A stretch of 64,000 nt of DNA from Sistotremastrum niveocremeum HHB9708 (Eukaryota; Basidiomycota; Agaricomycetes; Sistotremastrales; Sistotremastraceae), in NCBI GenBank assembly GCA_001630475.1, contig KV419435.1, positions 209,303 to 273,302 of the forward strand, read 5' to 3'. The translations under genes and the position numbers were made by a program. Each line of letters begins with the position of its first letter. Position 1 is the first letter of the stretch. Under the pieces are notes generated by a model that was not told the origin of the DNA, did no database searches, and saw nothing but the letters and a program-made list of their open reading frames with translations. Below are positions 18,530 through 64,000 of this stretch, in pieces.

Positions 18530-19659
18530 ATGGGATATGGTTCTGACTGCGAGGACTTAACGGACCAGATCGTCTACCGATCAAGCTGTCCTTATCCCAT
18601 CGCCCTAGGTGGACAAGCCGATATTTATCTTGGAACTCTGTCAGAACGCGGTTATGTCGTTGCTGTTAGAGTGCTCAGAAATTTTGACCTCGACGCACGA
18701 AAGAAGGCCTCTGTATTGAAGGTCGGTTCGTCCACAATACTTGAGTAAAACAAACTCACGCTTTGCAGAAGGTGAAACGAGAGATAAGACTGTGGTCCTC
18801 TCTGAAGCATCAGAACATTATCCCTTTCCTTGGGGTGTGTTTCTTTCCAACTGGAGACCCGGCTTCAGATGCATTCTTCTCCCTCGTGTCACCGTGGATG
18901 CGTAACGGCACAAGCTGTGAATACATAGCAAGTCATTCCGACGTCGACAAAATCGCTATGGTATGACGGAACTACTCAAACATCGACCACTTCTGATAGA
19001 AAGATAGTTCCTCGGAGCCGCCGAAGGGCTTCTGTATCTTCACGAGACAGGGATCGTCCATGGAGATCTCAAGGGTGTCAGTTAGGTCTCACCCGAAATC
19101 AATGGCCCAGTTTTTGACGATCACTAGTCCAATATCCTGATCAATGAGAATGGACAGCCTGTCTTAGCGGACTTCGGTTTAGCGAGGCTCTCCAACCCAG
19201 ATGGCGCCTTCGCATCCGATCGACTTACCTCCTCGAGCTCACTGCTGAGCGGCACTTGTAGATGGACCGCTCCTGAGCTCATCAATGAACCTGATCTTTA
19301 CCCGGGACCAACAATTCCTTCCGACGTATGGTCTTTTGGGTGTGTCATGCTTGTCAGTTCATCTCCGCATAGATGTGTACTTGCGAATTCCCTAATCCTC
19401 CGATGGACAGGAGCTTCTCTTTCAGAAGGTCCCATATTTTCATCGTCGACAATCTGTTCTCGTGATTATAGCCATCATGAGGGGTGAGTTACCCTATGAT
19501 GGTTTGCTTGACCCCGAACATGAGCCTGCAGAACTCGCAACACGTCCAGGACTTGGGTCACTTTGTCGCGCTTGTCTCGACTTTGAGCCAGGATTACGGC
19601 CCTATATGCAAGAGGTTGTGAGCCGTCTGAGACGGCTCTACGAAGGTCCCAATGGATAG
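18530..19659 (+). CDS. TKL-type kinase K4 with Arg in place of the VAVK lysine
   Basis: The start ATG at 18530 follows a CAGCAG-rich stretch. Motifs: IALGGQADIYLGT, then VVAVRVLRNF, where the catalytic lysine codon is AGA (Arg). Then VKREIRLWSSLKHQN, LVSPWMRNGT, IVHGDLKG with the Asp kept, DFG in LADFGLARL, CRWTAPELI and SDVWSFGCVML, then C-lobe LGSLCRACLDFEPGLRP. The reading frame is intact across the same intron positions as K1 and K6. The Lys-to-Arg change normally cripples ATP phosphate anchoring, so I predict weak or no phosphotransfer. A sequencing error at one base could also explain it. Confidence 0.82.
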
Positions 19660-22202
19660 AGGTTAGAGATTGCGAGTGAAAATATTGCACGCCATAGATA
19701 GAGAGCCGTTCTTGCCTATTGATCTGCCGATGTATTCTTTTTCTGTCTCTTTTTTTGGAGACAATATTTGTGCAGAAAGTAACTCTGTGCGTGCATACAA
19801 CACTTAATGCATTGATTCGCGCTACAGTTGCTTGTCCTATGCTCTGTGCGAGACTTCTCCATACAATGAACTAGCGAAGGAACACAGAAATACGAGACCA
19901 AGATCCAATTTCAGTGTACACTTAACAATGGAAGGTTCGAAGCGCCGCTACGTTTTCTCTGCTCTCGTTGAAGACTACTAGTAGTATTGGGTCCCCGATG
20001 CTCCCAGTGGCGTAGCGTGCCCGTGGCTCCCAGGCCCTGATTTAGTCAACACTGATGCATACATATATTACTCTGTATCAAGGCTCAGAGCAACTGACTA
20101 AGTTGGGACTGTACCGTGCATGAGTGCTGTAAGGTATCCTACCTTAACTCAACGTTGAGTCCTTCATATTCGTCTTCGCCTTCGTTTTGCTTCGTCGAGC
20201 CCAGCGCCTAAAGTCACCGTGATCACGTTGAGTTTTCAAACTCCGACGTACGCCTTTTCGACTTCGTTTACTCTCGCCGTCTCGAACATCCACATCGTAT
20301 TCAACGTCATTCTTTACGTCCTCCTTTACGTCCTCGACATCCAATCCATCCATATAACACTCCTTCGACATGCCAGCCCGCTCCCATCGCATTCCCACGC
20401 ATCGCCCGAATGTCCCCATCCAGCCTCGACATCGCCGACACACTCGAAAGAGCAACCTACATTCCTTATTCCTCGACTCTCGTCTTTGAAATCACAATTC
20501 CACATGCTCGGTCATCGCATTATTCATCCTTCCCACACGCTCCGACGTCATGCTCTTATGAATGGCTTTATGTCCTTGCCCAAACCTCCCCCTTCTCTGA
20601 AGGATCCGCCATCGAAGACTAGGAGCTATTCGACGATTGGATATTGTGAAGGACTCCTATTAGACTGTCAAATGCGCGGCTCTTTTGTATTCAATCATGT
20701 TGCTTCGCACCCTCCTGTAGTCACTCATGTAGGCCTTGGCCAGGCCAAACTCTCTCACAGATTTTCATTGGTTAGTTACTGCATTCGAAATACTATAAGT
20801 ACATGCATGTATTGACCGATTAAAAGTACCAATCAATCCCTCCTTTTCGTGCTATAACCTCGTCTGAAGTTCAAAAATCAACAAACTCATTATATTCATC
20901 TCACTCTTGGTTCACATCTTGTCGGCCCCAGTGTCGAATTCTTGGTTCGAGATCTCTTCAGATTTCTCAGTCAGCTTAACTGCTAGACTTACAAGTGCCA
21001 CGATTTTCATAGATCGACCTTCAACCGATGCCGTGCCGTGCCGCTGATTTGGAAATGAAGAAATGACGGTTTCTGCCATTGAGGGATTAGTTGTTGTTGC
21101 TTTGTATCACCACCACTTTTGTATAGCGGTTACTGCACATCCAAAAAGGGTAATTTGGCTCACCCTTCTGATAGAAATGCTTGTATTGACGAAAAGAACA
21201 AATCTGCAGGAGGAATTTCGCGAATTCTTAAAACTGATCGAGTTAGAAACTTTTCTCCGGACCTACTATAATTGGTCAGACCCCGAAAATTTCCGTTTTG
21301 GGCCATCTCGGACATGATTCCCGTTATTTCCGTGACTCTGATTTGACGTTTTTGGCTCAAATTGAGTGCCCAAACCCTGAAAACTTTCCCAGATCCAGAT
21401 TGGCCGGGCGCTTAACACAAGTAGCAGTGACTCAGCGTCCCGCATCATAAGTAGCGGAGCCCGGTCGTGAGACCGAGCCCCGGGTGTGTGTGTGTGTGTG
21501 TGTGTGTAGTAGGATTATGCACTTCTAGTATCCACGATGCGATGTTCCCTTATAATATTGAGAGACCGTAGCCCTGACGAAGTTCTCCGATTCTTCACAT
21601 TCTAAAATTGTGCCGGAAATACCAGATCCTGGTGTTCATACATATTGCATGATATATTACTAGTCCAAGGCGTAACTGGAAACACCTCGTAGCATGAGTG
21701 CAATCCCATAAGGAGAAGATAACATCAGGTCACAGAAGCTGCCACTCCTTCTTCAGGAGCAGTGCGAAGTCTATAACAGTCAAGGGCTTGAGCTCTGGTC
21801 TCGTACCCATCGGCAAACCGATCGACACGATGCTCACTTTTTCGATGCTGGGAGAGATATGTCATGCCGAGTTCCTACGACATCGAGCTTCCCTTTATTA
21901 TATGCAGCTTCAGTGTGCTATATATAGAGAAGAGAGAAGGGCCTAACGTGCAACTTTCGTGTGCTGCCTGCCCAAGAAGGGTTCGACGCCTTGGGTATCC
22001 TAAAGAGATCATAAGTCTGTGAGATAGTGGCAGACCCATGATATACTTGTTTAATCGGACAGGCTGCAACTCACCGTCGTTCTCTCGTTGGGATGTCCGG
22101 AAGCAAGTCCGGAAGCCAGCGCTGGCACATGATTCTGTTTGGCGGAGCTTGGAACGGTACGATTACTAAGCAAGTATCATCTCATATCCGGGCTTGAGCA
22201 AC
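19660..22202. other. Long intergenic between K4 and K5
   Basis: About 2.5 kb. A C/T-rich stretch at 20220-20640 gives long open frames of low-complexity Ser/Pro/His composition, which I do not accept as a gene. Near 21480 a (GT)12 microsatellite follows a segment of uneven composition that could be a decayed repeat, but no ends are visible. Confidence 0.4.
21484..21507. repeat. (GT)12 microsatellite
   Basis: Twelve uninterrupted GT dinucleotides directly after GAGCCCCGG. Noncoding. Confidence 0.95.
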
Positions 22203-31169: not shown

Positions 31170-32568
31170 CTAAGCTTCGTGAGCCTCTGAGACTTCCCAG
31201 TAAGAACTACCACGATATTTTAGCGATGCATGTAACCCACAAACACAGATTCACCCACGGAGGCAGATCTAGGGTCAGATTCGCGTCGTGTTCTCTTTCG
31301 CCGTCACGGTACAACCCCGATGAAATCTTCAATGACGAGGTTTTCAACAGAACGTTGTTACCTAGCCCCGGAAACGGGACCAGAGCTTGCAAGTGATACT
31401 GGACGAACTTTACAGTAAGAAAGGAATGCTCGGGGGTCCTTTTGGCCGTACTCACCGATGTATGCACAAGTCCGTGTTTAAAACTGGGAGGACACTGTAA
31501 CGTCATCAAGGAGTTGAAGGTCACTTCTTGGGTCCATCTTCCCTCCTTCTTCGAGTCGCCTTCCAGGATCCATATAGGCGGAGAAACATCCACAGTGACA
31601 TTATCATTCCATCCTTGCTTAAGAGCCTTCTTATCTTGCACTCCGAAGCCTGCAACCAGACCACGGTCTTCATGTCCCGTAGCGTAGTATGTTTCAGCAG
31701 TGACCCCTGCGAAAGAATAAAGACGAAGGGATATGTCATGTGCAGATCTCGGAGGTTTTGGGAATTGAAAAGTTGCTGGATCTGATGAGCTGGATTCTGG
31801 AAGGGGTTTGGAGTAACAATGTATGTGGAGTTGAATCGGGATCGGTTGGTACAATGGAAGGGAGGGTAGGTCAGGCAGAATAAGCTTTTTTTCGATTGAG
31901 AAATGTACAGAGCGCTACAAGTTCAACTTACCTCGACTTCAACCTTAGCTTGGCGACCACCGAACAGGCTGCGTCTGATCGAGACTTCTTCTCGCCATGT
32001 CCGAGTGTTTGCACCCAGTATCGAGGGGGGTGGTGTGTCATCGAAGGGGACAAAGGTGAACGGCCGATTAATCCAGATATTCAGTTTGTACCAAGCTTTC
32101 AGCTTTCCTACAATCTGAATATAATACTTGATACTTGCACTTCCATTATCAGTCAGTTGATCAAATGACGGAGGCAAATCAGGGTCGTCTGGCATAGTGA
32201 AAGAGAAAGGAATATTCAATAACCCCATCGAGCTGGGGTCGGCTTTATCGTCGTCTATGTTGGTGTCCAGTTGCCACAAAGTGGTTCGCAGATTCACAAG
32301 TGTACGCCATTCTGAAGCACTCTTGGGAGCAACCCGATCGTTGATGCTCCTCAAGTTGGCCGACCTAAATTCATAAGTTATGATGCAGTGTGAGTACTCT
32401 ACACACGTGGTACACTCACGTCCTCAGCACCCCAACCAAGGAGGCGGTCACAGCAACGATGCCCCTTTCTTTAATCTTGCCCACATCCAGATCGACGCTG
32501 CCCTCCACTGTGGACTTTGGGGTACGCAGAGATGGCGAAAAATTGAGTGTTATTCCATGATTGACCAT
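31170..32568 (-). CDS. Arrestin-like protein, copy A
   Basis: Arrestin-fold proteins in fungi often act as ubiquitin-ligase adaptors for membrane cargo. Exon 1 starts at ATG 32568 (MVNHGITLNFSPSLRTP). The core strands read LNIPFSFTMPDDPDLPPSF and SASIKYYIQIVGK, the classic arrestin PFSF-(L/M)P ... PPSF ... YY pattern. Then FTFVPFDDTPPPS, LPLYQPIPIQLHIHCYSKPLP, VPFPGLGNN and ISSGLYRDGE. The last exon, SYWEVSEAHEA, ends at TAG 31170. I placed it by comparison with copy B at 44603-46026, which has TYWEVAELKEK at the same splice phase. No PPxY motif is visible in the parts I can read. It is divergent from VWA8 with 331 bp between starts. Confidence 0.78.
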
Positions 32569-44602: not shown

Positions 44603-46026
44603 ATGATTGCTGCCATCTCTAATATAAGAACAGGATCGAATGCGAGTCAAGACGGTATATCTCTAGATTTCGTCCCATCCCTTCAACATCCTGGTTCTGT
44701 CGTTTCTGGAACGGTCAATATCGATACGGAGATTGCTCAAAGCAAAGGCGTAACAGAAGTGATGGCAAAGCTTGCAGGAGAGGTTCGTACGTGAGTTTTC
44801 ATGTCCTGTCCCAGACCATCATTGAGTGATAAACGTCGTAGAACAATCACTGTTCGAACAGCAGGTCCCGCAGCCGCAGTGAACGTCTTCCATCATGAAG
44901 GTCACATTATTTTCAACCTGGAAAACGTTCTCTGGAATCTCGAAGGATTCGGCTCCTCAGCCTCTAGTAATAACGGCCTTTTATCGATTCCTTTCGAATT
45001 CACCATACCGAACGACGAAAATCTGCCGCCTTCCTTCAAGCAACAGATCGATGACATGTCTGCTGCTATCCAGTACTATGTCATGATACTAGGAAAAAAG
45101 GAGGCGTGGTACAAGAGCAACGTCCGGATTGTCAAGCCTTTCATGTTCTTGCCATTCGATCAAAGCTCTCCTCCATCCGCTTTGAGTTCGGCAGGGCGAA
45201 TCTGGAAAAAAGAGATCGCGATTAAACGAGGGGTTCTTTTCGGAGCCGCTGGCAAAGTTGAAGCAGAGGTAAGTCATTCCCCAACCTAGCGCGTCAGCCA
45301 ATGAAATTCAGGCATCTTCACAGGTCGTACTGCCAGATGTCCCCTCTCTTCCCCTCTTCCATCCCATCCCAATCTACATCCGGATAAAATGTTACTCCAA
45401 ACCTCTCCCACACACTGAATCTTCCGATCCCTCTTCGTTCAAATTTCCACTCCCTCCCACGGCCACCACAGGCCTGGATCTCAAGCTCTGTTCTCACATC
45501 CGAATCAGTGCCAAAGGTCACGTCCGAGAACGACCATTAGATTACGCATCTGTGGCAGGGTTGGGAAAGCCCGAGAAAAAGACTCAGGCAGGTGGATGGG
45601 GACAAGATGTTCAAGTAGACGTTGGACAGCCGACATGGGTTATGGAAGGCGAATCGAAGAAGATGGGACGCTGGTTCCAGGAATCGACCTTTCAAGCCCC
45701 TATGACGCTGAGATGTCCGCCCAGCTTTGATAGACGGACTGTCAGACTTGAAGTGAGCTCTTCACGACGTCTTTGTCTACCTCTCTGACGTATCATTGCC
45801 AGTATACTTTCGAGCTGACAGTACCGTTCCCCGGTCTTGGAAACAATTTGACATTATCAGTGGGACCCGTTCCTGTCAGCTCAGGAATATATCGGGATCA
45901 AATCGAACGCGCAGCTGGAGAGCTGCTTGACATCCCTCCGTGAGTTAATCGTTGTCATCGACCCGTAAAAGATTTTCATCATGATACAGAACGTATTGGG
46001 AAGTTGCGGAGTTGAAAGAAAAATAA
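44603..46026 (+). CDS. Arrestin-like protein, copy B
   Basis: Paralog of the gene at 31170-32568 on the opposite strand. I start at ATG 44603 (MIAAISNIRTGSNASQDG); an upstream in-frame Met at 44426 is possible. Core motifs: LSIPFEFTIPNDENLPPSF, SAAIQYYVMILGKKEAWYKS, KPFMFLPFDQSSPPS, LPLFHPIPIYIRIKCYSKPLP, WVMEGESKKMGRWFQEST, and LTVPFPGLGNNLTLS. The last exon TYWEVAELKEK ends at TAA 46026. Introns sit at the same places and phases as in copy A. Identity by eye is moderate, so the duplication is old. The predicted role is cargo-adaptor-like by fold; substrate is unknown. Confidence 0.78.
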
Positions 46027-49076: not shown

Positions 49077-50770
49077 TTACACGCCAACCCACGTTCGCCA
49101 CTCTTTGATCTCCTTGCGATGACTTTTGACGATGGCCTTGACTTCTTCGCCCCAAACTTGCGCACCCTCTTTAACATGACGCTCAGACTCTGGGATTTCC
49201 ATCACGACGATATTCTCCAACGTCAAATCGCCAGCTTGATCCCACTTGACAAGAGTGGGTCGCTGAGGTATAGCATGAGGCGGGATCACGGATCGGCCAC
49301 GATGGACATCCTCAAAGAGGAACGATACATCATCTTCGTCAATCGGCATGCGACTGTCCTCGTGTCAGCATGATAATCTAAGATGTAGAGGAAGAGCGCC
49401 TACTTTATCTGCGTGCCTGTGAGTTTCGCTTCTCGCACTTGGAGATCACGAAGGAGCTTTTCGTAGAGCTTTCGACGGCCTTTGATAGGGAGTGGATTCG
49501 GGATTGGCTTTCCCGCAAGCTCGCACAGTATGTATGTCGCGATGTTTAATCCGAATATCGATGGTAGCGGTCCTATATCAGATGTCAACATCAACGATCA
49601 CACTCACAAGATGTTGCTCATCTTACCTAGAACAGGAAGGATCCGTACGCGGAAGTCATCGAACACTCCGAGCTCGTTGACTGATCCTTTTGCGAATTCT
49701 TCTTCGGGGAGGGGAAGAAGTTTAACATCTCCAGGGACTTCCGTTGAGTAAACCACAGGAATACCAAAGGAGATCCCTTTCGCTCGTAGACGTCGGCGAA
49801 CAGCGCGCGCTAGAGGGTCATAGACTGTATGCGAGATATCGCTGAAATTGCGACAATTAAATTTCAATGATGATCATAATCCGGGAGCTGCGAACCTTAT
49901 TTGAATACGAGTAGGGTCGCATTTGGCACCAGCACCCATAGAAGCGAACACCTTGATGCCCTTTTCGTGACAGTATTTGAGGAGATCCACCTTGGTGCCG
50001 ATGTTGTCGATGGCGTCTGATGAAAGCGTGGGTTTCAATGTTGAAACGGAGAAGAAGGAGCATACCTACGACCCAATCCACGTCATCCAGAAGCCAGCCA
50101 CCGTCCTCTGCCCTCCACAGTTCGATACAGGACTCGACTTTGATCCATTTGGAAAACGACTTGAGTGCCTTCTCCACGCACTTGACCTTGGGCGTCCCCA
50201 CATCTGCAAGAGTAGCAGTTGCATGTCGATTCAGCGATGAGAGTGTCACATAATCGAAGTCTACGAGGCGGATGCTTGAAATTCCTCTGCAAGGCTGAGC
50301 GATCAGCGACGCCCTTTACAGGAGAGAACCAATTTTACCTACGAGCGAACAAGCATCACAGCCGCCCAGCTCCCGACCCCACCGCATCCAATGACCGCCA
50401 CCTTACTTCCCCGTATTTTCTTCATGCCTTCGTCGCCAAAGAAAGCGTAGTTCCGCGTCAACTGTTCACGTATAAGAGTTTCATCGTAGTTGGATTCTTC
50501 ATCAAGAATAGGCAGATCAGAGTCGGTAGCGGTCTGTACAGTACCCTTGCCAGGGAATCGCAGCGCTTCAGAGGGTCGACGAACTCTGTGGCTTTTCTGG
50601 CTTGACTCGACGTCCAATTCGTGTGCGAGGCTTTCGTTGACTTCTTCGCTGAGTTTGATTCTTCTCTGACGCCGAGAAAAAGCTTGATAAGAGAATATGG
50701 CTATCGCAGTTGCTGAAGAGGCTGCGAAGGCTGCAATGGCCAGCTCGACGACTGGAGGTCGTCGAGACAT
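49077..50770 (-). CDS. tRNA threonylcarbamoyladenosine dehydratase-like (Tcd/ThiF family)
   Basis: This family cyclises t6A37 of tRNA to ct6A using ATP; fungal members sit on the mitochondrial outer membrane. ATG 50770. The N-terminus has a TM anchor (VVELAIAAFAASSATAIAIF) and then a basic linker. The ThiF/E1 fold follows: QLTRNYAFFGDEGMKKI, nucleotide loop VAVIGCGGVGSWA, LVDFDYVTLSSLNRHA (Asp and Arg contacts), VDWVVDAIDNIGTKVDLL, SMGAGAKCDPTRIQI and VYSTEVPGDVKL. The C-terminal exon (SRMPIDEDDVSFLFED to WRTWVGV) ends at 49077. The protein is about 475 residues over six exons. Its first roughly 377 residues are encoded identically in an inverted copy at 61486-62832. It is convergent with the receptor gene, 178 bp apart. 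Confidence 0.9.
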
Positions 50771-52351
50771 TGCGCTTGCAGCTGACTAAGCAACTTCTGC
50801 GTCATTCTCTTAGAATCGCAGAACCAAATCGACGTTTATGCTTGCGTTTATGATATCGAACTTGTATTCCCGTCAGCGAGCCAAACAGCAAATCTGAAAC
50901 CTTCTCCAGTCAGATCGCACGCAGCCATCTCTTTGAGTCCATCTTCCACAGTTTCTCTGCCCCAGTCTGCAGTTACCACAGGAGCGAGTTGAATCAAGGC
51001 AACAAACATGCGTCATTCATTGGACTCTCGACTGAAGATGACGAGGAAATGAACTGCGAGATCGCTAGCCGAGAAAGCGGCGAGAATGACTCGTCGACAC
51101 TCCCAGCCTTCTACATCGAATCAATCCCCGCCAGATAGCCAGAGGACGTCGCTGTATTATTGCGAGGGTGTTAATAGTAATGCCATCTCTTCAAAAACAC
51201 AGAACACTTGCATTCCATGCCTGTCGTGACAGTCTCCGCAAAACGAAGAGAGTCGTATCACGATGTCTAGAGTTGTACGAGGTCAAGGTCATCGACGGCT
51301 GTGCAATGTGAGATGCAGAGTGTAAGGGCTGCTCGGGCCTGTTACAGTGAAGGGGGAAATATCTCTTCAGAGATCACTACATTCGTATTAGCTGCTGAAT
51401 CATTGTGAGACCATTGTGAATGATTATCTCGCACCTTCCACCCGAATGGAACCGAGAAATGAACCACCAAAAACAAACACACATTATGAGCGACGAAAGC
51501 TTCACCCAGTCGCCCCTCTCAAAATCATGAATGAGCAGGGCAAAGGGGAGAAAATACGACATCCTGATGTCGAATTCGGGGAAGACTCTCCACAAGACCA
51601 CCCTCAGGCTACTGTTTGCGAGAGGAGTGAGGGGTCCCACTCTTCAGCTCGGCTCCCCATCCATCGTCGACAATCACTGACAACTGATGCCGCAGCACCA
51701 GCCACCATGGTCGTTTTCGACCCAACGGGTCAGGAACGATGAATGGGCCTGCTCCTGGGCCCAGGAGCAGAGAGCCCACAACAGCCTTGCGGCTGCTGCG
51801 AGAAGAGCTCCTTGCCTCCTAACAGACTGCAACAATCAGCAACCGGGCGCCCAGCTGCCAACTGCCCGTCTGTCCGCTGCCAAAAAGACAGCCACCTCAG
51901 CTCGGCTCACCACTCATCGTCGACAATCACTGACGACTGATGCCGCAGCACCAGCCACCATGGTCGTTTTCGACCCAACGGGTCCGGAACGATGAATGGA
52001 TCTGCTCCCGGGCCCAGGAGCAGAGAGCCCACAGCAACCTTGCGGTTGCTGCGAGAGGGGGGAGAACAAGGAAGGATGGGGAATATTCTTGGGGGCGAAA
52101 ATTACTTATCCTGCGTCGTCAGCTGGGATTGAATATTCAGCGACGAAACTCAGCAAGGGGACTGACTAGAATATACGCACCTAGTCATCCAGTAATTCTC
52201 GAAGCAGTCCATCCAACCAGAGAAGCGCAGGAGGTCCTAGTAGAAAGCCTGAGTCCAGCGGATGAAGCATCGGAAGCATCGGGAATCGGAGAGGAGAAGC
52301 ACTCTTGCCGGGCGCCGAGCTACATGCCGACATCTGCTTCCGGACTTCACA
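49424..52351. repeat. Left arm of a 2,928-bp perfect inverted repeat
   Basis: Every position x here pairs with 112256-x in the right arm (59905-62832). I compared several blocks and many open frames on both strands and found no mismatch or indel. It covers the dehydratase gene except its last exon, plus about 1.6 kb upstream. The first mismatch outward is at 49423, and inward at 52352. Beyond both edges a diverged match continues. Confidence 0.93.
51645..52056. repeat. Hairpin-dense direct repeat, two units with 253-bp period
   Basis: Unit 1 (51645-51803) and unit 2 (51898-52056) align without indels and with about a dozen changes. Each contains GTCG-TTTT-CGAC, GACCC-AAC-GGGTC and a palindrome centred on GGGCCC. 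In unit 1 this is a perfect 22-bp palindrome (51749-51770); in unit 2 it has one mismatch (52002-52023). The mirrored copy in the right arm lies at 60200-60611. Confidence 0.85.
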
Positions 52352-53013
52352 GTTGCTCAGGTCGTCTACTAGTAATTTCGTGCATTTGGTGGTCTCGCCG
52401 TCACCACGCGACGATAGTTTGAGATACATGAATAATTGTCCTCCCTCTGGATCTTTCCTTGGAAATGGAACCGAGTTCGCACTTAAATTCAGGTTTCATT
52501 CTCAGATGCTGGCGTTTCCCCATCATAAATTTGATTGGATATATGGGAATGCTCTTGGACAAAACTGAACTGCTGAGAAGCAGTGGACCTGAGGAGAGAA
52601 CACTATTCTCACCGGAATATTATCGAGAGAAACCCAACTGATGAACTCGAATGGCTTCTCTTGAGCGTCCCAAAACAAACGGATTAGCACCGCGAACTGA
52701 TTATTCGTCCTCGCGGTCAGAATCTTGCAGCACCCTGAGACGTGTCCGAAGCGGTCCGTTCATTCTGCATTCCGATTTGACGAGTTTCGGCAAAATCCAC
52801 AAAAAGAAGGATTTTATTTCCTGGAACGTTAGCCAGATCGTCGAAGGGCGGATGAGCTGCGAAGCACAAGCAGAATGGGCCTATGGCCAAAGATAATCAT
52901 GACATGAGACTTGAAAGCGACTGTTCATCTTCCCGAGCGTGTGGGTCTGACTTTGACGCTTTCGTTCGCAGCATACGCGGCCTAGGCAATATAGAGATGA
53001 CGTGACTGCATGT
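52352..53013. other. Diverged inner extension of left arm
   Basis: No gene is supported. It aligns, inverted, to about 59200-59904 at much lower identity than the perfect arms. Shared blocks include ACTATTCTCACCGGAA-ATTATCGAGAG (52602-52632, complement near 59643-59673) and AACGGATT-GCA-GCGAACTG (52678-52699). It marks the older part of the inverted duplication. Confidence 0.6.
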
Positions 53014-54137
53014 TCAGTCTATCCGGCAGAGGGGTGGAAAGCTAGCAACAAGGGCAGTCAGAGCAAGGAATGTGCCTTGGGACGGATGTCGCACCAATTC
53101 GTCTGCAACACTTCGCAGCATTGGAGTCAACATAGTACTTTGATTGTAATGAGAATCAGGCCGGAGGAGAATGTCGGACACACGCACTGTAAGGTTGAAC
53201 AAACATATCTTCGAATGCCCATAAGGAGAGCGTTCCTGCCGACATTCCAGTTCGGTACCCGCGAGCCCAGACGAAACTGGTCGCAACTTTTCGTTGCGGA
53301 CGCGAGCATAGAAGTTCCTGATCAAGCAGTCAGTCGTCAAAGTTCTTAACAACAATCGAGGGTCGGCTTACCCGTGCAATCGTGGAGCTCTCGCACATCT
53401 TGTCAGCCAAAGAGGTCAGGTAGGCTCATGCCCGACGTCGAGCAGCGTGGGCGGGGTACTATAATGCGCGAAAGATCGCCCCATAACGATCAGGCCACAG
53501 CCCCAGAGACTGTCCTGGAATGCAAACCTTAGCTAACGACGCCACGGCGTAGCATTCCGAGTCATGTTGGCTTTCGCAGAGGGGTGTTTGATGCCTTTCG
53601 TGAAAGCATTCAAGCAATGATATCTCTGGATATATGTCCTCAGTGCCGTTAAACACTTGATTCACAGAAAGGAGTACATACCTGAAGTAGATTCCATATA
53701 ATTCGGACCGTCAATGTCCTCTGGCCTCGGAGTCTGCCAATGGTCTCCACAGTTCTTGCGAACGAATGTAGTCAGAATTACTTCGTTCAGGTCCTCCAGC
53801 CTCTTGGACGACTGCTGCCGGGCGAGCGATGCGTTCCATATCAGCAGTGGTAACTTCATATGTTCGCAGTCGACCAGACGAATGGCAGATCCGCACTGAC
53901 CGGACGTCTCTCGTGCCAAAGATGAGAAAAAAAGACTTACGACTACACGACCATCATTATTAGAACTCGATTCATCACGGTCCAGTGACTGCCCAATCTT
54001 TTTGAACGATTCACGGCAGAAAACGCGTTAGATCTTCGTAGGTGTAGTATAGCAGTAGTTGACCGTAGGTCTCCTGGCTGACTAAGCGCATCCTCAGGTT
54101 GCTCTTGACCAAGGAAACGCTCATTCATTCGCCCACT
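53014..54137 (-). pseudogene. Unknown gene X, left copy, decayed
   Basis: A gene-like series of blocks reads MNERFLGQEQPEDALSQPGD (from 54137), ADMERIARPAAVVQEAGG, GPNYMESTSG before a GTATGT donor, and then GLWPDRY. An inverted relative lies at about 58186-59200 with the same order of blocks and introns. Aligned to that copy, the left one has in-frame stops in the block after WPDRY (YPAHAARRRA region), so I call it a pseudogene. I do not recognise the protein family. Its start abuts the F-box gene start head to head (54137/54138). Confidence 0.5.
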
Positions 54138-55611
54138 ATGTCTCTCCTTACGATGGCACCTGAAATTCGCGAGATGATATTTGAAGCCTTCGTAGTTGAC
54201 GCCATTGAGTCCTGCACCCGTACAGCGGACCGTCTCAAAATGACACTGAAAATAACACACATGTATGCGCTTTATGATATCCAGACGCTCTCACCCTTGA
54301 CGTTGCAACAGATGCAGGACGATACGTACTGCCGCCTTCGACTATCATCGCTTTTGGTCGTTGATCCATCTCCATTGGCACGCGGATGCAGTCCAATTCT
54401 TTCTCGAGCGCGCTCGCGTACAGACGAATCCCGACCTCCATGTATTCTTGGATCTACAAGCGGGGGGGACGAGTAATAAAAGAAAAAAGCACCAACGTTG
54501 GGGGAAGTTTCTGGAGAAGGAGATGAAGATCATCCAGTTCCTAGGGATCAAAATCACCCTCAACCACGGAAGCCCAGTCATCGTAGCAGCCCTTCGCGAT
54601 ACTCCTGCGCCTCGACTCACGGGTTTCGAACTGGATCTCGACGAAAGACAGACACATAATGCCAATATCACCCGACTCTTCAATAACGACGCCCCTTCAT
54701 TGAACTCAATACGCATACATGCTCGTGCGCCATTCGATCAGTTGCCGAACTTTGCTTCCTTGGAGGAGCTCGGGTACAGATTGACTGAAGAAAACTTCGC
54801 GGGACTACTGGAGATGTTGGAAGGGAGTCCGAGATTGAAGTACATCTCATTGAAAGGAGCTTCGCGATGGACGCCTTCGCCGCTACCTGGAGTGAATCCA
54901 GCGCTTCAAACACCAGTCGTTCTCCCGGATTGTTCATCCTTATTCATCAGGGGCATGGATGCACGTCGCACGTGGCATATACTCCGCAACATCAGCTTTC
55001 CGGTGATGACTCGTTTGGACGTTTACGAAAGAATATTCGAGCACGATAACAATCTCATGGGAACGATCTTCGATACGCTGCCGAAACTTCCTCAGAATCC
55101 TGAGTTACCTCCGAAAGACTATCTCTTCTTGGGCATACGACCTAATCTCATCTGCATCGAGCTCAAAGGTTACCGATACCAATGCAACTGGACGAACCTC
55201 CACTTCCAAAATCTCACGGACGGTGCAGGTGCCCACCTTCTCTTCTCGTTCGTCATCGACGCCATTACTGCTCCAGCGAATGTTCTCCATCTCCAACCTC
55301 CAAAACTTCATATCGAAAATAATATCACTCTCGAAGAAGACAACCCTCTATCGCTGGATCTACACGATCTCACTGTCTTGTTGGTTCGAATCTTCGACGC
55401 GTACCCACTCGTCGAGGAGCTGTGCCTTTCAGGGAACACGGCCTTCATTACGCAGCAGCTTCGCCACACCCATACGCAATCGCTTCCGTTATTGGCCACT
55501 TTGAAGCTCGAGAAGAACTTACGACACAATATTCCACAAACTTATGACGCAGAATCGGTCAACGCACTCGAAAGGACTCGGAATCTTGAGATAGTCAACT
55601 CTTTTCTTTAG
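54138..55611 (+). CDS. F-box protein with LRR-like C-terminal region
   Basis: F-box proteins bring substrates to SCF ubiquitin ligases. ATG 54138 gives MSLLTMAPEIREMIFEAFV, an F-box start (PEIRxxIF). A 49-bp intron (54263-54311) joins TLKITH to ICRTIRTAAFDYHRFWSLIH, restoring the typical end of a basidiomycete F-box (CRxxRxxA...FWSxIxL). A long second exon encodes about 430 residues with regularly spaced hydrophobic and Asn/Leu motifs (PSLNSIRIHARAPFDQLPNF, LEELGYRLTEENFAGLLEML, LVEELCLSGNTAF), consistent with leucine-rich-repeat-like packing. It ends at 55611. The gene is intact and sits at the centre of the inverted duplication, with no partner copy visible on the other side. Confidence 0.82.
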
Positions 55612-58157
55612 GATGGGTAAACATAGCTGACGCCATTGTGTTGTTGGGGTTACTTCTGTCTATCGCTGTTCGTCTTCTGTTTCGCTTTGAAATTGCCGGA
55701 CTTGGTGTTTGAGAATGTTATTGATGAATATTACAATACAGTTGTCAATGTGATAATATCCCTCAAAAGCGTGACCGCTTTGAGTCGTAGCAGCATAAAA
55801 GCTCCAGTTCCTCTTTGAGAGTCAAACGTGAATTAACACGCCATAAATCCGTCTTCGATTTGCTTCTAAAGAGGCTTTGATTATCCGCCGACATAAGTGG
55901 CCTACTCTTGATGTCCTGTCAGCGGCTTCAATCTTGGCCTTTACTTCTTCATCGTGAGCTCGCGCATCTTCTCCGACCTGACCCTCGGCTTTTAGGAGGT
56001 CCATCTCAATGGTATACTTTTTCACTCGGTTTCAGTCTTGGGTGACGCGGGAGGACAGCTTGATATGCAAGAGAAGACGACGTGATCGTCGCATAGGTGC
56101 TAGGTGCTAGCCTGATAGTCGGCGAGACATCCGTGCTGATCGACGGCGTCAGCGTTATGACAAGACGAAGAAAAGGTGCGGAGAAGGTGCAGACCTGGCA
56201 AAGGGGCATTCTTTCTTCATTGCATCCATCACAAGCAAGACGAACGAACTCGGTAGCAGTCCTAAATCATTTATCGACGTGTATGCATGATCTTGCATCG
56301 GCACGAAAAGTTTCTGACAATGCGTATCAATGAAATCAAACGCCCCAGTAGCAGCGGAAGCACAAACTATTTGACGATGCTACCGGGTTCAATCCTCTAG
56401 CATCCTTTCAGAAGCGCTGCCTGCTCTGGGCAAAGGAGAGTATATGCTGGCGGAGAAGCTTAGCGAGGTCCCTCTTAGCTTTGCGCTCTCCCTTCGGCGA
56501 ACTCGGGCGACATCGGGCGACATCGGAAAGAGAGGGGGTGCATTTGAGGACACCTAAGCCGCGAAACTTAGAATGAATGATCTGATGAAGACTGAACAGC
56601 ATGCTTTTCACGTCATGGTGGTCGAGGACCGTTAGTCTGAATCTGCGGATCGATTTGAGGAGGTGAAGAACAGGTGGAATGGTGTGGGACCTACGCATGA
56701 CTCGATGTTCCATGGACGCAGAAGAGGGATCAAGCTAGGTGTCGTCCAGAGATTCGGAGGCAGAGAATATGCGTCTCAGACTGTCGAGCATCGGAAGCTG
56801 AGCTATCCCACATATCATTGAAGGCTTGTGTCGGAGAGAGCGATGGTGCGTTATCGCGTCATATGGCTGCACTCCACTCTATAACAAATAGTCTCGAGAT
56901 TCGTACGCCTTTGACTATTTCTGTGGAACGTGCATGAGAACGAAATTAGTATCAACTGGTCGACACGCACACTTGATGGCCTGGTGGATCGCTGTCTTAA
57001 CTCGCCTCTGCCTGTGTTGATGAAAGACATGAGCACAAAACTCCACAGTTAATGGCTCGTGATGCCCGAACAGAGTGCGCATTGAGGGGTCCTGACACAG
57101 GCGTGAATATTCACACTTTGACTTCGTCTCAATCTCTGACTCACCCAGCACATGATGCATGTTGCTTTCACCAGGACGTAGTCGCAAAGGCGAGATTAGG
57201 GTGAGGTACGGGCGCAGAATCTTCTTCGGGTGGCATAAACTGTTGTCAACACGCGAGCTGAGGAATCTTCAAGTGTTCGGAAGATATCGCTGACGTGACA
57301 GAAGGATCAGGATATCGTCAGAGAGGTAGAGATATAGTTGCGGGGCTTACATGACCATGGGTACGACCACGCTCTGCCTCTAAGTTAATGGGAATTGCGG
57401 ATATTTTATGCTTTTCTGCCTCTGTCTCGAGAGTGTCGGATGTAGAGGGTCGCGCTCATACCACCTGACATGCAGTTGAATCTTCTATTCATGCGAGGAG
57501 AGACCAGCGTACCTACAATCTGACCCAAGTCATTCAGATGTCAAATGCTTTCCTCTACTATACCATCCGCAGTCCAAGACACGATGGGATTGGTAATGGT
57601 ATTTTCTCTCGGCATTTCACCTTCGGGATTATCAACGACTTGGATGACAATTGAGTGACAGAAGGGTCATACCATTGAGATTCGGCGAATAGACATTCGA
57701 TATTCGCCTACGTGGCCTTTCATAAGCGACACTCTGCAGGGAAGAAATATACAAACGAACGGATAAGCATCGCTGGTCGTCCAAATCCCAACATCATGAC
57801 ATCCAGCCACTGCCACATTAGTTCAAAGATTTTCTTGAAGCATGTCCCGCAGAAGAAGCTGAAGGAACACACGGACCATTCCCAAGCCAGTTTTTCGCGA
57901 TCAAACGCTTCATCAAGACTAGGAAATCAAGAGAGATGCCATCTGTTGTGAAATGGCCAGAAAACGACGGGTTTTGAACTTTGGTAGATTTGAAGACTGC
58001 TCTGAGGGTTTTCGGACGGGGCGCGACTTCAAGTTTCAAGCGTTAGAATTGGAGGTGAGGACTGCGGGGGTCAGAACATTCGTGCGTTCGCTGAAAATTT
58101 GAGACTGAGAGAGACGTTGACATTGCAGAATGTAGACTTTGCATTGGACCAAGACGA
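55612..58157. other. Centre of the inverted duplication, no clear gene
   Basis: About 2.5 kb. Minus-strand blocks at 55822-56025 (EMDLLKAEGQVGEDARAHDE) and 56408-56713 (HHDVKSMLFSLHQIIHSKF) have protein-like composition and might be exons of one unresolved gene or its remains. No family is recognisable. The small duplicated motif CGGGCGACATCGGGCGACATCGG lies at about 56506-56524 (11-bp unit, twice). Confidence 0.35.
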
Positions 58158-58185
58158 TTGAGAGCGAGAACGACGACCTCGGCGG

Positions 58186-59200
58186 ATGGCCGTCGGAGAC
58201 GACACTCGCAGATCAGAGCCGCGACCATCAATGTCCCTACGAAAGCCGTCTTCTGCTGTGAATGGCTCAGAGATATGCGCAGTGACGAGACCTGGTCCAG
58301 TGCGCTCTATCGTTGGTCGTGTGATAGTGAGTCATACTTTGTCGTCATTCGCGGATGACCCTCACCAAGAAATAGCCTGACGGCGGACTCTCTTATGATA
58401 TTCTCTCTATCAACAGTCTGGTGTCCCGACAATTGCTGATGCAACACGCGTTACTTGTCTAGCAAAAGTCGTCCAAGAGGCTGAAGGGCTCAAACGAAAC
58501 GCTGCTCCATCGGATATTTCTATCGAAAGCTGGAAGCCGGAGCCTAGGGATGGTGGCTGCCCGGATTATAAGGATTCGCCTTCAGGTATGCCCCTTTTGC
58601 TTTGCACCACGTATCTAAAGCTCTGACAATATTTCCTCAAAGATGGTACTCCTTGAATTTCACGAAAAAATGTCTATGGCCCCTGAGCCATCGCGATCCG
58701 TAACCCTACGTGTTGTCAGATAATGTTCGCACTCTAGAGCTGTCACCGACACTGTGGCCTGATCGTTATGTGATTTCAGAGATATCCCTTGCATCACGGT
58801 ACCCTGCCCACACCGCTCGACGTCGTTCGTTAGCTCATCTGATCTCCTCAGCCCACAAAATATGCGAAAGCTCCATTCTCTCAGAGGTAAGCCGGAGATC
58901 AATTGTTGCCAGGAACTTTGAGTACTGAATGCTTGATCTGGAACTTCCATGGTCAAGGCCAAACTCAAAGTCGCGACTGCTTTCGTTTAGGCTCGCGGGT
59001 GGCGAATTGGGCCGTTAGCAGGAACGTTTGTTTGATCGTAGGGTGCGTGTTTCCCCCATTCTCCCTCGACTTTATGCTCATTTGACCAAAGTAGGGTCTT
59101 GTCGCCAAAGTTGCGAAATGTTTAGCGAACATTGTCGCCGCATCCGTCTCAAGGTGTCCATGATCTAACCCCTTCGTCGACGCCTTGCCCCCACACACAC
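58186..59200 (+). pseudogene. Unknown gene X, right copy
   Basis: Blocks in order: RPSMSLRKPSSAVNGSEI, then after an ACAG acceptor PTIADATRVTCLAKVVQEAE and CPDYKDSPSG before a GTATGC donor, then LWPDRYVISEISLASRYPAH and RRRSLAHLISSAHKICESS. These match the left copy (53014-54137) inverted. The WPDRY exon is open here, where the left copy is broken. The downstream part (58930-59200), however, has no clean frame, so the copy may also be decayed or its exons may be misread. I do not recognise the family. Confidence 0.4.
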
Positions 59201-59904
59201 ACCGAATACGCCGAATACTCAGTCGCGTCCGAATTCCTTGTTGCGCAGGCCGACTTTGGCGCCCTCAAGCCGAACGGCATATTCGAAAGGGAATCACATT
59301 GTCGAGAAGCCGAAGACTTCCGTTCAAGCGTGCATTCGGGCGATCGAGTCTCTCCCTAAGGTCGTGCAGGTCGTATTTGACAGTCCGTCCCCCCTTCGAT
59401 GCTCCGATTGACGGGCAATTGAGGATGCCCTCTTCGTCCTGAACATTCCTGACGCTTGCCAATCCAGCATGAGTGGAAGGACGACCCCTAAAGGCATTGG
59501 TAGACCTGTCAAAAACATTTCGAGGTACCGTCAAACGTTGATTGCGAGGACGATAAACTTAATTATATAGAAGCAGTTCGCATTGCCAATCCGTTCGTTC
59601 TGTGACACTGAAGAGAACGCTGCGATTTCTTCGATCGGATTCCTCTCGATAATGTTCCGGTGAGAATAGTCGTCACTGTGGAGATGTATGCTTCTCAGTA
59701 GCGTCTTGTAGAGCATTCCAATTCATCAAATTGATTTGATGAGGGGGAAACTGGAATGCAAGCAACTTGGACCTTTCGTGAGAAAAACTGAATGTGAAGG
59801 GGAATTCAGCTCCGTGTCAAAGAAAAGGTTTGAAGGAATAACTGGCACCAAAGCACTCTCAATTAACAGGACGAAGAGCAAGTGAGCGATCTGAGAACGA
59901 ATAT
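59201..59904. other. Diverged inner extension of right arm
   Basis: The inverted counterpart of 52352-53013, with scattered conserved blocks and small indels; for example 6 bp are inserted directly at the edge of the perfect arm. No gene is supported. Confidence 0.55.
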
Positions 59905-62832
59905 TGTGAAGTCCGGAAGCAGATGTCGGCATGTAGCTCGGCGCCCGGCAAGAGTGCTTCTCCTCTCCGATTCCCGATGCTTCCGATGCTTCATCCGCTG
60001 GACTCAGGCTTTCTACTAGGACCTCCTGCGCTTCTCTGGTTGGATGGACTGCTTCGAGAATTACTGGATGACTAGGTGCGTATATTCTAGTCAGTCCCCT
60101 TGCTGAGTTTCGTCGCTGAATATTCAATCCCAGCTGACGACGCAGGATAAGTAATTTTCGCCCCCAAGAATATTCCCCATCCTTCCTTGTTCTCCCCCCT
60201 CTCGCAGCAACCGCAAGGTTGCTGTGGGCTCTCTGCTCCTGGGCCCGGGAGCAGATCCATTCATCGTTCCGGACCCGTTGGGTCGAAAACGACCATGGTG
60301 GCTGGTGCTGCGGCATCAGTCGTCAGTGATTGTCGACGATGAGTGGTGAGCCGAGCTGAGGTGGCTGTCTTTTTGGCAGCGGACAGACGGGCAGTTGGCA
60401 GCTGGGCGCCCGGTTGCTGATTGTTGCAGTCTGTTAGGAGGCAAGGAGCTCTTCTCGCAGCAGCCGCAAGGCTGTTGTGGGCTCTCTGCTCCTGGGCCCA
60501 GGAGCAGGCCCATTCATCGTTCCTGACCCGTTGGGTCGAAAACGACCATGGTGGCTGGTGCTGCGGCATCAGTTGTCAGTGATTGTCGACGATGGATGGG
60601 GAGCCGAGCTGAAGAGTGGGACCCCTCACTCCTCTCGCAAACAGTAGCCTGAGGGTGGTCTTGTGGAGAGTCTTCCCCGAATTCGACATCAGGATGTCGT
60701 ATTTTCTCCCCTTTGCCCTGCTCATTCATGATTTTGAGAGGGGCGACTGGGTGAAGCTTTCGTCGCTCATAATGTGTGTTTGTTTTTGGTGGTTCATTTC
60801 TCGGTTCCATTCGGGTGGAAGGTGCGAGATAATCATTCACAATGGTCTCACAATGATTCAGCAGCTAATACGAATGTAGTGATCTCTGAAGAGATATTTC
60901 CCCCTTCACTGTAACAGGCCCGAGCAGCCCTTACACTCTGCATCTCACATTGCACAGCCGTCGATGACCTTGACCTCGTACAACTCTAGACATCGTGATA
61001 CGACTCTCTTCGTTTTGCGGAGACTGTCACGACAGGCATGGAATGCAAGTGTTCTGTGTTTTTGAAGAGATGGCATTACTATTAACACCCTCGCAATAAT
61101 ACAGCGACGTCCTCTGGCTATCTGGCGGGGATTGATTCGATGTAGAAGGCTGGGAGTGTCGACGAGTCATTCTCGCCGCTTTCTCGGCTAGCGATCTCGC
61201 AGTTCATTTCCTCGTCATCTTCAGTCGAGAGTCCAATGAATGACGCATGTTTGTTGCCTTGATTCAACTCGCTCCTGTGGTAACTGCAGACTGGGGCAGA
61301 GAAACTGTGGAAGATGGACTCAAAGAGATGGCTGCGTGCGATCTGACTGGAGAAGGTTTCAGATTTGCTGTTTGGCTCGCTGACGGGAATACAAGTTCGA
61401 TATCATAAACGCAAGCATAAACGTCGATTTGGTTCTGCGATTCTAAGAGAATGACGCAGAAGTTGCTTAGTCAGCTGCAAGCGCAATGTCTCGACGACCT
61501 CCAGTCGTCGAGCTGGCCATTGCAGCCTTCGCAGCCTCTTCAGCAACTGCGATAGCCATATTCTCTTATCAAGCTTTTTCTCGGCGTCAGAGAAGAATCA
61601 AACTCAGCGAAGAAGTCAACGAAAGCCTCGCACACGAATTGGACGTCGAGTCAAGCCAGAAAAGCCACAGAGTTCGTCGACCCTCTGAAGCGCTGCGATT
61701 CCCTGGCAAGGGTACTGTACAGACCGCTACCGACTCTGATCTGCCTATTCTTGATGAAGAATCCAACTACGATGAAACTCTTATACGTGAACAGTTGACG
61801 CGGAACTACGCTTTCTTTGGCGACGAAGGCATGAAGAAAATACGGGGAAGTAAGGTGGCGGTCATTGGATGCGGTGGGGTCGGGAGCTGGGCGGCTGTGA
61901 TGCTTGTTCGCTCGTAGGTAAAATTGGTTCTCTCCTGTAAAGGGCGTCGCTGATCGCTCAGCCTTGCAGAGGAATTTCAAGCATCCGCCTCGTAGACTTC
62001 GATTATGTGACACTCTCATCGCTGAATCGACATGCAACTGCTACTCTTGCAGATGTGGGGACGCCCAAGGTCAAGTGCGTGGAGAAGGCACTCAAGTCGT
62101 TTTCCAAATGGATCAAAGTCGAGTCCTGTATCGAACTGTGGAGGGCAGAGGACGGTGGCTGGCTTCTGGATGACGTGGATTGGGTCGTAGGTATGCTCCT
62201 TCTTCTCCGTTTCAACATTGAAACCCACGCTTTCATCAGACGCCATCGACAACATCGGCACCAAGGTGGATCTCCTCAAATACTGTCACGAAAAGGGCAT
62301 CAAGGTGTTCGCTTCTATGGGTGCTGGTGCCAAATGCGACCCTACTCGTATTCAAATAAGGTTCGCAGCTCCCGGATTATGATCATCATTGAAATTTAAT
62401 TGTCGCAATTTCAGCGATATCTCGCATACAGTCTATGACCCTCTAGCGCGCGCTGTTCGCCGACGTCTACGAGCGAAAGGGATCTCCTTTGGTATTCCTG
62501 TGGTTTACTCAACGGAAGTCCCTGGAGATGTTAAACTTCTTCCCCTCCCCGAAGAAGAATTCGCAAAAGGATCAGTCAACGAGCTCGGAGTGTTCGATGA
62601 CTTCCGCGTACGGATCCTTCCTGTTCTAGGTAAGATGAGCAACATCTTGTGAGTGTGATCGTTGATGTTGACATCTGATATAGGACCGCTACCATCGATA
62701 TTCGGATTAAACATCGCGACATACATACTGTGCGAGCTTGCGGGAAAGCCAATCCCGAATCCACTCCCTATCAAAGGCCGTCGAAAGCTCTACGAAAAGC
62801 TCCTTCGTGATCTCCAAGTGCGAGAAGCGAAA
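59905..62832. repeat. Right arm of the 2,928-bp perfect inverted repeat
   Basis: Reverse complement of 49424-52351. It carries the hairpin-dense repeat (60200-60611) and a copy of the dehydratase gene on the plus strand. Perfect identity stops at 62833, where a change turns Leu to Ile in VREAK(L/I)TG. About 60 bp of roughly 75-80 percent identity follow before homology is lost. Confidence 0.93.
60200..60611. repeat. Hairpin-dense direct repeat, right-arm copy
   Basis: Mirror of 51645-52056: unit 2 at 60200-60358 and unit 1 at 60453-60611, with the same palindromes in reverse order. Confidence 0.85.
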
Positions 62833-62890
62833 ATCACAGGCATGCAAATGAAGTACGCACGCTTCCATTCTATCTTAGATCGCCATGCTG
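61486..62890 (+). pseudogene. Truncated second copy of the Tcd-like dehydratase
   Basis: From ATG 61486 the first five exons and introns equal the left gene up to 62832, so the TM anchor, GCGGVGS loop and the rest of the ThiF core are intact. Beyond that, similarity decays (KITGMQMK for KLTGTQIK) and ends at about 62890. The last exon of about 92 residues present in the left gene (starting SRMPIDEDDV) is absent. Reading on gives an unrelated tail to 63075. A shortened protein could still be made, but a truncated gene copy is the simpler view. Confidence 0.72.
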
Positions 62891-64000
62891 GCTCAATGAT
62901 CTGGATGTGGTTGGAGGTGCGCATATCTTGCCGCTTACCAAGTGTAACACTCATATCCCTATCAGAGGTCTTTGAGAACAAGAAACAAAGGTGTCCCTGC
63001 TTGCTTGCTCAGACTTCAGTGTGTGCTTTCGCCTCATGTCATTTTACTCGTGTTCACGTTATGTCGCAGTTTTGAAGTGATCCCTTGCCTACATTCTTAT
63101 GGTTGCGCACTATTCAGCGATATAGATCAATAACACATAGGTAAGTGCCGCTTCTCGTTAGCTGCTCGATGATCTGATCCGCTGAACAGATCTCACCGGC
63201 GACACCCAACTCCTTTTAGCATTCTCGGCAAGCCAAAGATCTACGGTTGACATGAAAAGAAGCACTTACAAATCTGCCGGAACTTCTGTCACTCATATCG
63301 GATTTGAGTTCCCAGCTCATGTCTTGAGCGAAGCCCACGCACAGAAGTCACCATGCCTTAAACCGAACTATCTCGCAATGCCCTGCAGGTCAATCTTCGT
63401 ACGTCCCTGGACATTCCAGATGAAACTCATCAATAATATTCCTGTCAAGGTCTCGGCACTAGTGGATGTTCCGGTGGATGTCCCACAAGTCATCGCACAG
63501 GTGACCTGGCATGTTCGATGTATAATGTCGTTCATAGCAACCGTAACCTTCTCGTAAGTTCTCCCTTCTCGTGGCGTTCACGCGCCATCTGAGAACGTTG
63601 ACGAGATAAGCAGTCGAGTAGACACTCTGTCGATGTTCCTGTCTGGCGAGCAACCTCCCGAGCTGGTTGCGACTCGCGAGCTGCGAGGCCCTCTCAGTAA
63701 CTCAGATTTCAACCTTCTTTGAGCGAGAGGAACTGGCGAAAACATTGGGCGAAAACTGAGCTTGTCTGATCTGGTCTCGGCAGGTCAGTATTATTCTCTC
63801 CTCCTCGCACTCGCTCACACATAAGACATCGAAGGGTATTGGTAGTTGGAGGGTCTCCGATAAGAGTTGGCATCAAATCGCGAAGTAAGCACGTCTGCCA
63901 CAGTTTGCTCCATATCGGACGATCTAACCCCTATTTTCTTAGCGCACAGAGGACGATTCGAGTCGTCTTCACAATCCGAGTCCCGCTACCTCCCCTATAT
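62891..64000. other. Right flank, no firm gene
   Basis: About 1.1 kb to the window edge. An open plus frame at 63252-63557 (KLINNIPVKVSALVDVPVDV) has protein-like composition but no recognisable family and no second exon I can place. It may be part of a gene continuing past the window. Confidence 0.3.

Follow-up and report, generated by a model that had tools for sequence, protein, structure and literature searches.

A perfect 2.9-kb inverted repeat within a diverged, probably older inverted duplication carrying a predicted Tcd gene in Sistotremastrum niveocremeum

Among described systems, the closest that we found to the locus reported here is the flip/flop region of Saccharomyces chromosome XIV, where a segment of 24 kb with 15 genes has been documented in both orientations across strains, according to the available part of the report (PMC9731477). 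For the human Y palindrome P6, the accessible text of another study counts three inversions against 146 conversion events (PMC3723533). The kind of event considered below is already known, and the present locus is a new example of it with an unusually readable history. A search of the literature on conversion, inverted repeats and Tcd gave no report of this locus, which is weak evidence since many journals fall outside its coverage.

The window, a stretch of 64,000 nucleotides without a single N, corresponds to positions 209303–273302 of a 294,938-base contig (C42) in an assembly of 34.7 Mb and 111 contigs. A script comparison showed that positions 49424–52351 (left arm, forward strand) and 59905–62832 (right arm, reverse strand) are exact reverse complements at 2928/2928 bases, the match stopping precisely at 49424/62832 on the outer side and at 52351/59905 on the inner side. 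A repeat search and BLAST returned the same two arms, extended slightly outward with mismatches. The right arm ends ∼22.8 kb before the end of the contig; the whole tract has no other match in the 34.7-Mb assembly, and parts of it recur. By the rule of three, the absence of differences in 2928 bases would place the divergence of the arms below about 0.1%. The tract spans coding, intronic and non-coding DNA, including four introns of a predicted Tcd gene and the DNA upstream of this gene. Since these introns and the intergenic DNA, which are sites without coding constraint, are identical as well, coding constraint cannot explain the identity, and selection for identity is ruled out on the same ground. 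The original prediction had claimed both the exactness of the arms, with edges at these same bases, and the mixed content of the tract, and on these two points it was borne out.

Inward of the tract, the inner flanks at 52352–54042 (left arm, forward strand) and 58236–59904 (right arm, reverse strand) remain homologous for ∼1.7 kb at ∼63% identity with many gaps; counts made as far as 58760 in the right arm gave identity at 237/372 aligned bases in a first stretch and at 439/697 in the next. On the outer side, homology continues for 67 bp without a gap between 49357–49423 (reverse strand; the end of Tcd exon 5 and most of intron 5) and 62833–62899 (forward strand), with 49/67 bases identical. 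When 100,000 random pairs of 67-mers were drawn from the window, the best pair shared 33 bases and none reached 48. Beyond 49357/62899, arm-to-arm similarity is at chance level. Exact matches common to the flanks reach at most 19 bases on the inner side and 9 bases on the outer side, and no intermediate step of arm-to-arm identity was detected beside the inner edge or, in 20-base steps, beside the outer edge. On either side, the near-identity gives way to diverged homologous DNA that stays in register, over only 67 bases on the outer side.

Because both ends of the tract pass unbroken into collinear diverged homology, the proposal of a recent conversion tract, or of recopying, inside an older palindrome is supported, and we consider it probable that conversion or recopying in some form took place recently within an older inverted duplication. 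The diverged homology that had been claimed for both sides holds inward, for ∼1.7 kb, but was overstated outward, where it amounts to only 67 bp and is gapless. A fresh inverted duplication into unrelated DNA fits the perfect identity when this is taken alone, but would not leave collinear diverged homology on both sides without an offset; the continuation of this homology rules the fresh duplication out, and we attach next to no probability to it. The arms had also been described as prone to hairpin or cruciform formation. Extrusion is not needed to explain the data and appears unlikely given that the spacer between the arms is 7,553 bases long.

The core of the spacer (54043–58235) has no detected arm-to-arm homology. 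It holds a long open reading frame (54301–55611) for which no Pfam match was obtained at E ≤ 0.01 and which has a diverged relative at C42:289608–290373; relatives of other stretches of the core are found in contigs C84, C73 and C97. Three other diverged duplicate pairs in the window were looked at as an informal control, at 1190–2046/7509–8300 (77% identity by BLAST), 11931–12443/15338–15844 (68–76%) and, inverted and 113 bases long, 31469–31579/45629–45740 (73%); the BLAST rows for these pairs contain no long exact tract. A DUF6535 match and introns of ∼50 bases were noted as well, and would point to an agaricomycete.

In the left arm, a Tcd gene (tRNA threonylcarbamoyladenosine dehydratase), predicted to be complete with six exons and 476 aa, occupies 49077–50770 on the reverse strand; its intron borders were picked by eye. 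The tract takes in exons 1–4 and most of exon 5, with an open frame, and leaves out the last part of exon 5, intron 5 and exon 6. The introns are of the GT..AG type, four within the tract and the fifth (50 bases) outside it. The predicted protein matches PF00899 (ThiF) with an E-value of 3.5e-46, and its best PDB match is 9hmp (tRNA threonylcarbamoyladenosine dehydratase 1; residues 98–460, E 3.4e-77). Residues 361–471 are matched at E 2e-7 by 9tzg and 9hmo, chains of 121–122 residues that bear the same name; from their length and the available part of PMC13139853, these chains would be the isolated C-terminal domain. The best NCBIfam match is TcdA at 118.7 bits, below a curated cut-off of 304 that is set for bacterial proteins. 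The left-arm protein is thus predicted, from its sequence, to combine a ThiF/E1-like domain closest to Tcd/TcdA with the C-terminal domain, and to be a tRNA ct6A dehydratase.

The right arm carries a 3'-truncated copy of this gene at 61486–62899 on the forward strand, consisting of exons 1–5 (to 62852), whose homology to the left gene stops within intron 5. Inspection by eye of the 524 bases past the tract, in all three forward frames, showed neither exon 6 nor a C-terminal domain. In the accessible text of PMC13139853, yeast strains have no ct6A when the C-terminal domain is missing from Tcd1, from Tcd2 or from both, so that the right-arm copy is probably not functional by itself. When the first 217 Tcd residues were searched against the assembly (E ≤ 0.001, with only the best candidates scored), matches were obtained only in the two arms and in a third copy, hereafter copy C. 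The left arm holds the only complete Tcd gene found.

These observations bear on the direction of the event at the outer edge, where only the left arm continues into the last exon and the C-terminal domain of Tcd. The open Tcd frame within the tract, together with a drift of the truncated right copy that its stub suggests (27% diverged, 18/67), would point to the left arm, or its lineage, as the donor at this edge, on a stub of 67 bases and with copy C stopping short of the outer edge. The argument requires the decay of the truncated copy to have preceded the event.

Upstream of Tcd in the arms lies segment B, which contains two direct repeat units of 160 bp belonging to a dispersed element. 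The units are located at 51644–51803 and 51897–52056 in the left arm (forward strand, together spanning 51644–52056), where they are 93% identical to each other, and the same units are found at 60200–60359 and 60453–60612 in the right arm (reverse strand, spanning 60200–60612). A search that covered C84 and C97 in full, the terminal 105.6 kb of C42, and stretches of C48 (8.6 kb), C28 (10 kb) and C73 (17 kb) yielded 36 B units in these six contigs, mostly paired and 35 of them at least 110 bp long. Allowing ≤1 mismatch, the assembly has 31 matches to a 17-base core of B (0 to a backward control); 28 of the 31 are in the same six contigs and three are in C8 and C21. By eye, B looks non-coding, since the indels between its copies are not in threes. 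Two other identities were considered for this DNA and rejected: a transposable element, in that no place in the assembly other than the two arms matches the whole tract and B recurs at low copy number on few contigs, and a structured RNA, in that the window has no Rfam match at the gathering score.

Copy C lies ∼5 kb beyond the window and, in window numbering continued past the window's end, consists of a B block at 68999–71139 and a decayed A (Tcd) block at 71210–72186, in permuted order. The Tcd block contains stops, frameshifts and deletions and looks like what is expected of an unselected copy. In a tree of 35 B units, from which one unit of 54 bases was dropped, the units beside the Tcd remnant of copy C (C42:282375 and 282621) group with units from C73 and C97 and not with those of the arms, indicating that B has an exchange history of its own.

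Copy C allowed the inner edge of the tract to be polarised. Over the B part of the tract (51638–52351), both arms are identical to copy C at 665/707 positions (94.1%). In the next ∼430 bases inside the inner edge, the right arm stays close to copy C (372/426, 87.3%), whereas identity between the left arm and copy C drops to 234/383 (61.1%). Site patterns in this region consist of 110 shared by the right arm and copy C, 20 shared by the two arms, 14 shared by the left arm and copy C, 11 at which all three differ and 216 at which all are alike (binomial 110/130, p 3e-16). An alignment-free comparison gave the same polarity, as 69/416 12-mers of the right flank but only 2/418 of the left flank are present in copy C. 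The B end of the tract thus belongs historically to the inner flank that is now on the right arm. Farther inward, the patterns are nearly even (113 shared by the two arms, 105 by the right arm and copy C, and 88 by the left arm and copy C). With copy C taken as an outgroup, the tract therefore conflicts with the history of its flanks, the three-way patterns changing at the inner edge.

The identity between the right arm and copy C is not uniform, being 94.1% in the tract versus 87.3% in the flank (Fisher p 1.5e-4), which would reflect either locally varying rates or one further event. The block of high identity between the right arm and copy C, ∼1.1 kb long (from ∼60618 to ∼59478), looks like an older exchange. 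Two B copies aligned from elsewhere gave no polarity for the inner flank: the one in C84 is 50.0% identical to the left arm, 53.0% to the right arm and 51.8% to copy C, and the corresponding values for the one in C48 are 47.6%, 48.1% and 47.0%.

The two donor signals are opposed, the inner edge indicating the right arm and the outer edge the left arm, so that simple copying in one direction, with the spacer oriented as assembled, does not suffice. One form of such copying would run from right to left, with the Tcd part of the right arm still intact when it was copied. The strong continuity of the inner edge with the right arm is what this account predicts. It also implies that a Tcd copy without its C-terminal exon, and so with little to keep it intact, stayed intact while its stub diverged by 27%; the absence of ct6A in yeast without the C-terminal domain in Tcd1, in Tcd2 or in both (available text of PMC13139853) and the decay of copy C both argue against this, and we give simple right-to-left copying little chance.

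We tentatively prefer a left-type donor combined with a changed orientation of the 7.55-kb spacer, a combination that we regard as quite possible without rating it as probable. An old inverted duplication of ∼4.7 kb (49357–54042 and 58236–62899) would have comprised Tcd minus its last exon, element B and further DNA, and its copies would have drifted to about 63–73% identity. Recently, ectopic homologous recombination (gene conversion) would have replaced 2.9 kb of one arm with the sequence of the other; most likely the left-arm lineage, bearer of the only complete Tcd found, was the donor. Either the spacer would have been inverted by an accompanying crossover, or it may be mis-oriented in the assembly. 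A flipped or misplaced spacer is suggested by the inner end of the tract, which is continuous with the inner flank that the right arm now carries, and a single event could explain both edges because a crossover between inverted arms flips the spacer and so swaps the inner flanks. A real flip and a wrong assembled orientation have the same appearance here; the rarity of inversions relative to conversions in P6, in the accessible text of PMC3723533, lowers the prior for a real flip.

Alternatively, at least two overlapping conversions in opposite directions, with the left arm supplying the Tcd part and the right arm the B part, may have occurred without any flip of the spacer. This main rival accounts for the opposed polarity of the edges without a crossover, and the older, shorter block shared by the right arm and copy C (∼60618–59478) suggests that local exchange has been repeated. 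Two events are needed, however, both recent enough to have left 0 differences in 2928 bases, and an intermediate step of arm-to-arm identity is seen neither at the inner edge nor at the outer edge; we therefore hold opposite conversions to be rather unlikely. Going further than a single conversion with spacer reorientation, the locus could be an active flip region in which the B neighbourhood re-homogenises the inverted duplicates, the orientation of the spacer switches between strains, and the complete Tcd gene and its truncated twin are rewritten repeatedly. We offer this more speculative reading as an unlikely one.

The assembly itself might have produced the identity, either by a consensus that made similar arms identical or by using the sequence of one arm twice. 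Repeats were difficult for the assembler, as judged from a 100-N gap in C84, from the 5.8S rRNA, for which the assembly search gave no match, and from the TTAGGG array, which was not found (0 matches to the pattern, 7 to a backward control). The gap lies exactly where a 1484-bp repeat shared with C48 at 99.26% identity ends, and this coincidence, like the exactly zero differences between the arms, is what an artefact would predict. On the other hand, four distinct flanks would need at least two real copies and the window contains no N, while other close repeats have kept their differences, namely this C48/C84 pair (99.26% over 1484 bp) and a ∼4.8-kb C73/C97 pair (97.13% over 4843 columns), both between contigs. 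If the arms were collapsed, the assembled identity could conceal a few real differences, but even collapsed arms would be far more alike than their flanks and would still ask for a recent homogenisation. We consider an artefact decidedly unlikely. Proximity to a telomere, considered separately, is not supported by the TTAGGG counts.

With its sharp tract edges set in an old, diverged background, the locus records ectopic recombination in a compact, natural form, and this record contains two polarity markers, a third copy at one edge and a gene truncation at the other. A real flip would be a fungal inversion between re-homogenised repeats in addition to the Saccharomyces case; failing this, the locus is a warning that assemblies can mis-orient a segment between perfect inverted repeats.

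The following comparisons rest on the available parts of the reports cited. Like the yeast Tcd1 and Tcd2 and the Tcd of S. pombe, the left-arm protein combines a ThiF domain with a C-terminal domain; unlike in those systems, the second copy here is inverted and lacks the C-terminal domain (PMC13139853). The long inverted repeats of Caenorhabditis are likewise near-perfect and contain gene pairs together with intergenic DNA, which was read there as active maintenance; their structure is conserved across species, whereas the present one is known from one genome (PMC1803023). Palindrome P6 of the human Y matches the reading proposed for this locus in its arm-to-arm conversion with tracts of several kb (mean 2068 bp, maximum >9 kb) and rare inversions, but the arms of the human Y palindromes are >99.9% alike, whereas here a single tract lies between flanks that differ by ∼37% (PMC3723533). 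The Saccharomyces chromosome XIV flip/flop, the closest case found, is also a gene-bearing inverted repeat of a fungus and of similar size (∼4 kb in that case), and its arms are homogenised within strains while the intervening segment inverts, a behaviour that the present arms may share; that report also considers whether errors of assembly could create false identity (PMC9731477). The locus described here differs from the Saccharomyces case in its 7.55-kb spacer, in coming from one genome, in a tract placed between diverged inner and outer remnants, and in a third copy that polarises one of its edges.

Element B, the dispersed repeat found inside the arms of the perfect 2928-bp inverted repeat, is represented at 51380–52760 and at related loci, mostly as paired units of about 160–250 bp. 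It is apparently non-coding, is present in low copy number and is found in a few gene-family neighbourhoods. On contig C84 of the same assembly, B units lie inside an inverted pair (11562–12602 and 18837–19879, 90.6%), and a further inverted pair is located at 6404–6903 and 19991–20490 (93.8%).

A B-element neighbourhood also holds a near-identical tract common to contigs C48 and C84 (C48:251561–253044 and C84:24334–25817), with 99.26% identity over 1484 bp and with 1071 of 1071 positions identical in its final windows. On one side, homology continues in a collinear but diverged form, at 87% and then at 76–80%, and a 100-N gap in C84 is positioned exactly at the end of the tract. Just two copies were detected in the assembly, besides one 58-base match in C76. 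Alongside the perfect inverted repeat of the window, this pair is a second near-identical tract.

The spacer between the arms of the inverted repeat carries a long ORF (54301–55611), for which no Pfam match was obtained at E ≤ 0.01; diverged relatives of its DNA are present at C42:289608–290373, on the contig of the window, and in C84. Elsewhere in the window, a direct repeat (1190–2046 and 7509–8300, 77% identity) is accompanied by a second diverged direct pair (11931–12443 and 15338–15844), one copy of which overlies a protein kinase ORF, and by an inverted 113-base pair (31469–31579 and 45629–45740, 73%). Of two short tandem repeats, the one at 5727–5795 has a 19-bp unit (3.6 copies, 100% matches) and the one at 3276–3344 a 33-bp unit (2.1 copies).

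Searches of the whole assembly gave no match to 5.8S rRNA and no TTAGGG array, with the backward pattern, used as the telomere control, matching 7 times. A pair of about 4.8 kb was found at C73:62216–67032 and C97:2395–7222 (97.13% identity), the former copy reaching the end of its contig. Since C97 is a 15-kb contig, these copies could be either residual alleles of one locus or the product of a recent duplication.
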